From assembly GCF_003148775.1 (NCBI RefSeq), contig NZ_QGGW01000004.1, positions 310,001 to 374,000 on the forward strand: a DNA stretch of 64,000 bases, in the 5' to 3' direction. This document shows positions 57,598 to 57,996 of the stretch, piece by piece. Position 1 is the first letter of the stretch, and each line of letters starts with the position of its first letter. Under the pieces are notes generated by a model. That model was not told the DNA's origin, did no database searches, and was given only the letters and a program-made list of their open reading frames with translations. The position numbers and the translations under genes are program-made. Origin of the DNA: Roseicyclus mahoneyensis. Its GTDB lineage: Bacteria; Pseudomonadota; Alphaproteobacteria; Rhodobacterales; Rhodobacteraceae.

Positions 57598-57612
57598 GTT
57601 CTACATTTGTTC
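57598..57612. promoter_or_regulatory. LexA/SOS box, direct repeat GTTC-N7-GTTC
   Basis: GTTCTACATTTGTTC is a perfect alphaproteobacterial SOS box. It ends three bases before the ATG of the stand-alone OB-fold gene, so LexA would cover the start of transcription or translation. Confidence 0.85.
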
Positions 57613-57615
57613 TTA

Positions 57616-57996
57616 ATGGAGCCCCTACTGTCCCCCCCCGACTGGCCGCGCGCGCCGGTCTGCCTGCCGCACCACCTGCTGCATCTGCCGCCCGAGGGCG
57701 CGCGGGTGGCGGTGGCGGGGCTTGTGCTGGTGCGGCAGCGGCCGGGCACGGCCAAAGGGGTGATCTTTGTCACGCTGGAGGATGAGTTCGGGGTCTGCAA
57801 CGTGGTGGTCTGGCAAAAGATCTACCAACGCTTCCGCCGCGCGGTGATTGCGGGGCGGCTGCTCAGGGTCACGGGACGGGTGCAGCGGCAGTCGGGCGTG
57901 ACCCATGTGGTGGCAGAGGAGGTGGAGGATATCTCGGCGCTGCTCGACGATCTGGTGCGCCTGCACGAGCCGACCCGCGCCGCCGACCAGCCTTGA
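57616..57996 (+). CDS. stand-alone OB-fold protein homologous to the C-terminus of error-prone polymerase DnaE2
   Basis: 126 residues. The segment from about 30 to 115 has the DnaE2 C-terminal OB-fold pattern: [38 protein letters not shown] and a [21 protein letters not shown], here quoted in part. In DnaE2 this fold sits at the extreme C-terminus. The polymerase, PHP and HhH parts are absent upstream, where the ferredoxin gene runs on the other strand. The ATG at 57616 is preferred because a perfect SOS box ends three bases before it; little room remains for a ribosome site, so the mRNA may be leaderless. Confidence 0.75.

Follow-up and report, generated by a model that had tools for sequence, protein, structure and literature searches.

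The window (the whole stretch of DNA that was analysed, 64,000 nucleotides) contains a short gene whose product corresponds to the OB domain of the error-prone polymerase DnaE2, preceded by a LexA-type box and next to a divergent ferredoxin gene. It also contains an imuA-like gene with a box of its own. The features, in window positions, are the following:

57616..57996, plus strand: stand-alone DnaE2 OB subunit gene, 126 residues, with its ATG at 57616 and its stop codon at 57994-57996
57598..57612, plus strand: LexA-type (SOS) box GTTCTACATTTGTTC, exact, ending 3 bp 5' of the ATG
57602-57607: -10-like hexamer TACATT inside the box GTTCTACATTTGTTC
57580..57585, plus strand: -35-like hexamer TTGCGC, 16 nt upstream of the -10-like hexamer
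57173..57496, minus strand: divergent 2Fe-2S ferredoxin gene (Pfam Fer2, E 2.8e-13), a neighbour and no polymerase part
31124..31138, minus strand: LexA-type box GTTCGCTAAATGTTC (minus-strand reading), exact, before the imuA-like gene
31155..31775, plus strand: imuA-like gene, 26 kb from the OB gene

The match of the OB protein to the DnaE2 profile of NCBIfam (NF004225; E 1e-31, 109.9 bits) is confined to positions 949-1038 of 1047, and the protein also matches Pfam PF01336 over the cut-off (E 8e-12). The first-pass annotation had described this product as the terminal OB domain of DnaE2 only, with an exact GTTC-N7-GTTC box three bases before the ATG and no polymerase sequence around it. All three statements hold, as no polymerase sequence adjoining the gene is seen in the window, and at the level of sequence it is confirmed that the gene encodes an OB domain cut from the C-terminus of DnaE2, behind a LexA-type box. 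The exact pattern GTTC-N7-GTTC occurs three times in the 64-kb window against 1.40 expected, and at least three times in 13 of 100 shuffles, so that a single box, taken alone, is within chance. The third exact occurrence, at 27093-27107, lies inside frames and is probably a chance match.

The remainder of the polymerase is encoded on another contig of the same genome (32 contigs, rated 99.99% complete):

G000:C2:384685-387552 (contig C2): truncated DnaE2 body gene, 979 residues, matching positions 4-938 of the NF004225 profile

With 1221.6 bits on NF004225 (cut-off 939), this body is the sole match over the cut-off in the genome. It contains PF07733 (DNA_pol3_alpha), PF17657 (finger) and PF14579 (HHH_6) over their cut-offs, a PHP domain match under its cut-off, and the motifs PDIDVDF and KVDVLALG, which we take to hold catalytic Asp residues. 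No OB domain follows the HHH domain in the same chain, as the match ends at profile position 938, and the SRDF[H/R] tail is absent from both the body and the OB protein of this genome. A second large match to NF004225, on contig C8 (586.5 bits), is taken as the replicative DnaE1, and when the OB protein was searched against the genome, no further match had an E value below 0.18. Because the DnaE2 of this genome stops before the OB domain and no other OB match was found in it, the OB gene is the piece that this DnaE2 is without. One DnaE2 was found, lacking the OB domain, and no full-length dnaE2 carrying it. The suggestion that the OB gene might be the remnant of a lost dnaE2 is therefore refuted for this genome by the body with its catalytic motifs, and it was also rejected because the OB gene is under purifying selection. 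The competing suggestion of a mutasome part is favoured, in the sharper form that the OB protein is the domain missing from a DnaE2 whose gene lies in another place.

The same arrangement is found in related genomes. A stand-alone OB gene was present in all 12 other genomes of the genus that were searched (87-94% identity), and both halves were present in 17 of 17 genomes (this one, the 12 of the same genus and four of other genera). In a family sample of 246 genomes with completeness of at least 90%, 110 carry the stand-alone OB gene (108 from the first search, with G112 and G181 added later), and 107 of these 110 also carry a truncated DnaE2 body, with matches that end at profile positions 937-978. 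About a hundred related genera retain the split arrangement. It could be asked whether the two halves are simply a fault of assembly or annotation, since broken polymerase genes occur in some drafts (for example, G512 and G308). However, the same break, with the halves far apart and the OB gene boxed, is seen again in the one-contig genomes G005, G069, G157 and G266; we rejected this explanation and regard its probability as negligible.

Three OB-bearing genomes stand outside the 107: G085, whose body gene runs off the end of a contig; G235, which has the OB gene and body pieces near a contig end and a fused dnaE2 on another contig; and G075 (seven contigs, rated 100% complete), in which an intact, boxed OB gene was found (L100, G075:C4:2083561-2083905) and a DnaE2 body was not. 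In G068, G088, G172 and G189, which have the body, the OB gene was not found even with a profile, and these absences are possibly assembly gaps because each assembly comprises about 100 to 490 contigs. A class-wide sample of 289 genomes contained at least 146 with a match. Outside the family, the matches listed were mostly in frames longer than 1000 residues or close to the start of a contig, the exceptions among them being G422 (650), G308 and G512 (broken long genes) and G507; fused dnaE2 genes in both surveys are likewise counted among the matches listed. G507, which lies outside the family, carries an orphan 166-residue OB piece of DnaE2 with the ancestral SRDFR tail (L261, 6397-6897). No DnaE2 body was found within 11.5 kb of it, and a long frame nearby presumably encodes an RND-type efflux pump. 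In G059 (contigs C1 and C4), taken as Dinoroseobacter shibae, both halves are on the chromosome-sized contig and a second, fused DnaE2 is on a 126-kb plasmid. As a side observation, 806 plasmid records match the OB protein, and many among the 40 matches listed are annotated as error-prone polymerases.

In a tree of 87 bodies, all 54 truncated bodies fall into one clade with support 0.967. The tree holds 54 of the 123 truncated bodies seen (111 in the family sample and 12 in the genus) plus G202, and its fused class (n = 32) was defined by an SRDF-like tail, so that finding this tail in fused genes carries no independent weight. The next branches outside the truncated clade are G272, which is fused, and then G202. 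Judging from these relationships, the split of DnaE2 is probably one old event, and the co-occurrence of the two halves across the clade hence does not represent independent cases.

The gene neighbourhood offers some indication of how the split may have proceeded. We compared 120 OB loci, obtained from 126 short-frame loci by removing six (L006, L007 and L168 as duplicates; L166, L169 and L170 as contig-end or fused-gene pieces). The ferredoxin gene precedes the OB gene in 118 of the 120, the exceptions being G202 and G105. At the G202 locus (L158), a truncated body (2489-5719), an opposite-strand gene (5791-6633), presumably dimethylargininase-like, and the OB gene (6675-7232) follow one another. 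This OB gene is separate, has its own box, starts with WPRPP, lies 955 bp past the end of the body and encodes the tail HPRDQAKRLFPSRDFH. With its OB gene about 1 kb from the body and the ancestral SRDFH tail kept, G202 looks like an intermediate in the fission. G105, the first branch inside the truncated clade, has a boxed OB gene with an altered tail, HPRDQSKLLF followed by other residues. We propose that the fission would have taken place near the body, that the OB gene would subsequently have moved beside the ferredoxin gene, and that the tail would have been lost afterwards. The fused DnaE2 of G272 (L167), which has its own exact box upstream and a junction resembling the start of split OB proteins, may be a re-fusion. 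The OB tree, like the residue comparison, omits G105 and treats G202 separately. In it, all split OBs are grouped with G202 and G272 inside (0.737), the placement of G272 having a value of 0.09; since this tree is weak, two separate fissions are possible.

LexA of this bacterial group binds GTTC-N7-GTTC. An exact box on the sense strand within 150 bp upstream of the start was found for 116 of the 120 OB genes, against 8 of 5904 background 150-bp windows from the same loci, so that among relatives the box is far more frequent than chance would give. Hand inspection adds G105, where the box lies 5 bp before a re-assigned ATG, and G112 and G181, where it lies 2 bp before the ATG; as the latter two joined the set after the 120, an exact box is present in 119 of 122 copies. 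A box with one mismatch precedes the OB gene of G042, and none was found within 150 bp upstream of it in G270 and G080. For 97 of the 116 genes, 1-3 bp separate the end of the box from the assigned start, and for 76 the distance is exactly 2 bp. These counts lean on the box, because the nearest ATG or GTG in frame downstream of it was taken as the start; a start codon at that spacing is expected by chance in a few per cent only. Upstream of the body gene, GAACA-N6-GAA[TC] is present for 52 of 54 truncated bodies and in 0 of 2140 background windows. The G199 body has an exact GTTC-type box instead, and neither type was found upstream of the G105 body. Most of the body boxes, including that of the genome studied here, differ from the full box at one position.

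The first-pass annotation had pointed to dnaE2, imuB and lexA as genes whose presence would bear on the interpretation, and the truncated dnaE2 body, an imuB-like gene and LexA are all present. The lexA gene of this genome has two GTTC-N7-GTTC-type boxes upstream, and LexA was found in 7 of 7 genomes searched. The imuA-like product matches the ImuA model NF033429 of NCBIfam with E 2.3e-10 and 40.7 bits, under the cut-off of 150, and gave no match in a Pfam search. The imuB-like gene, on contig C6, has an exact LexA-type box and encodes a Y-family protein with DUF6504, an appearance on which its assignment is based, as no ImuB model matched it. On a weak match for imuA and on appearance for imuB, the genome holds putative members of the mutasome. 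With its box, and with LexA encoded in the genome, the OB gene itself is a predicted member of the LexA regulon, and the conservation of the box would imply that it is induced by damage. Part of the text of PMC3323433 places the imuA-imuB-dnaE2 cassette in the alpha-proteobacterial LexA regulon, and PMC6473078 predicts LexA sites in D. shibae, its main text leaving imu and dnaE genes unnamed.

The box may be part of the promoter itself. A logo of 97 relatives, picked by box spacing and not by the upstream element, shows a -10-like box core, TAYNTT, and T(T/G)GC upstream of it across a 16-nt spacer. As the start codon stands 7-8 nt after the -10-like element, the mRNA would, from the spacing, begin at or beside the ATG, which suggests that the OB mRNA is leaderless. 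The hexamer TATACT was also seen right after the boxes, 7-8 nt before the ATG, at the body gene (L004, upstream of 4368) and at the imuA-like gene (31116-31155). From this placement, SOS promoters of the leaderless type may be widespread in this regulon.

Purifying selection acts on both parts. The dN/dS of the OB gene has a median of 0.147 and a range of 0.03-0.23 in 78 of 78 genus pairs, that of the body gene has a median of 0.119 over the 78 pairs, and the OB frame is open in 13 of 13 genus copies. The earlier argument that an intact promoter element and frame speak against decay is thus strengthened by purifying selection and by the persistence of the box. The stand-alone OB gene might still be a drifting remnant beside a split body that works without the OB domain, as several DnaE2 sequences without this domain have been reported in a section of Timinskas et al. 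2013 (PMC3919608), and as bodies were found without an OB gene in the four fragmented assemblies mentioned above. However, the open frames, the low dN/dS in every genus pair, the exact box in nearly all copies and the constant ferredoxin neighbour all stand against this, and we consider it very improbable.

The two halves also evolve in step. Over 50 genomes, of which G105 is not one, distances between OB proteins correlate with those between bodies (r 0.86, and partial r 0.79 when ferredoxin is controlled for), against a partial r of 0.24 between ferredoxin and body; when each genus is represented by a single genome (38), partial r is 0.65 and 0.20, respectively, ferredoxin being a single small control gene and a weak yardstick. 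This tracking fits a working pair, as far as distances can tell, and it is weakened as independent evidence because the phylogeny is shared with the clade.

Several residues distinguish the split OB proteins. They carry a conserved N-terminal WPRPP stretch and an Asp at position 111, the latter in 117 of 118, a residue outside the four commonest at this position in 35 fused OBs. The SRDF[H/R] tail of DnaE2 is a presumed protein-binding motif. It is present in 1 of 120 OBs (G202), and, with a single exception, the split sets examined have it in neither half, so that the split complex may differ from the normal DnaE2. The loss of SRDFH, the WPRPP start and Asp111 together suggest that the docking of the OB protein on the body may have been re-made after the split. 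A different motif, RT[DE]xW[DGE], was seen near the C-terminus of bodies L202, L173, L180, L201 and L208 and of OBs L121, L138 and L150; the idea that such a tail is shared in place of SRDFH was rejected, as it was found in 3 of 120 OBs and five bodies only.

Could the OB protein instead have left DnaE2 altogether, so that it now works on its own, for instance as a small protein that is induced by damage and binds single-stranded DNA, or together with a different partner, such as the replicative polymerase DnaE1, which it would modify? The intact, boxed OB gene of G075, with no DnaE2 body found, and the WPRPP stretch and Asp111 peculiar to split OBs would be in keeping with this. An AlphaFold2 model of the OB protein, built with 24 close relatives, places predicted strands and a helix in the order b1-b2-b3-helix-b4-b5, by which the five-stranded OB barrel is defined, but its mean pLDDT is a poor 58.7 and it was used for strand order alone. 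A Foldseek search with it gave no match at E <= 0.001, and weak, non-significant matches were to chains of RPA, Stn1 and SSB, which would agree with such a role but come from that poor model. A PDB sequence search with the OB protein was uninformative (best E 0.14; DnaE alpha E 0.63). Against independence, the truncated body is kept in nearly all OB-bearing genomes of the family, and the OB protein follows the body in its evolution more than the neighbouring ferredoxin does. We therefore regard an independent OB protein as quite unlikely.

The sequences show that DnaE2 has been split into two genes by fission, and the OB subunit most probably completes the body in trans. DNA damage leads to LexA cleavage. 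LexA would thereby be lifted from four scattered genes, those for the OB subunit, the body, the imuA-like protein and imuB, and the OB subunit would dock on the body in trans, perhaps also on ImuB, to yield a complete mutasome. Once docked, it might hold the template single strand or help to recruit the polymerase. It is also conceivable, though unlikely, that the OB protein is a detachable and separately induced activator, such that mutagenesis would start only once a leaderless, rapidly produced OB subunit joins a body that is weak or does not reach the template by itself. Such an activator may be exchangeable between polymerases, serving the split body, DnaE1 or a fused DnaE2 carried on a plasmid, as in Dinoroseobacter shibae; the survival of the OB gene in G075, where no body was found, would be compatible with this.

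The completed DnaE2 proposed here shares with the ImuA-ImuB-DnaE2 (ImuC) mutasome, as parts of PMC12926913, PMC6511836 and PMC10421592 describe it, the polymerase family NF004225, the imuA-like and imuB-like genes and the LexA-type boxes. It differs in that DnaE2 consists of two polypeptides, that the genes are dispersed with boxes of their own and that the SRDF[H/R] tail, present in about 77% of DnaE2 according to a section of PMC3919608, is lost. In the same source, the nearest literature precedent is one sentence on DnaE2s without an OB domain; these resemble the truncated bodies seen here, but there the OB domain is treated as absent, whereas here it is encoded elsewhere in the genome. A further parallel is iPolY with a stand-alone ImuB-C (described in part of PMC12926913), in which a mutasome protein is likewise distributed over two genes; there the Y-family partner is divided, and here the polymerase itself. 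The intein-split cyanobacterial DnaE (PMC3919608) also derives from two separate genes. In contrast to it, the cut here is at the OB boundary, no intein domain is among the Pfam matches of body or OB protein, and the two chains would be expected to remain apart. The main text of PMC12926913 contains neither "OB domain" nor "OB-fold", a term search of the text of PMC10421592 gave no match, and among open-licence papers, judged by titles, abstract openings and selected passages and including term searches of PMC5285347 and PMC9426580, no description of a DnaE2 whose OB domain is provided in trans was found.

In about a hundred genera a DNA polymerase is encoded as two separate chains, cut at the OB domain, which qualifies the idea that some DnaE2s are simply without this domain. 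For the OB domain of DnaE2, the split provides a natural deletion together with its complementation, in a non-pathogenic marine bacterium. The coexistence of split and fused DnaE2 in G059 would be a natural setting for polymerase competition, and the OB gene would add a further, very consistent member to the LexA regulon of the family.
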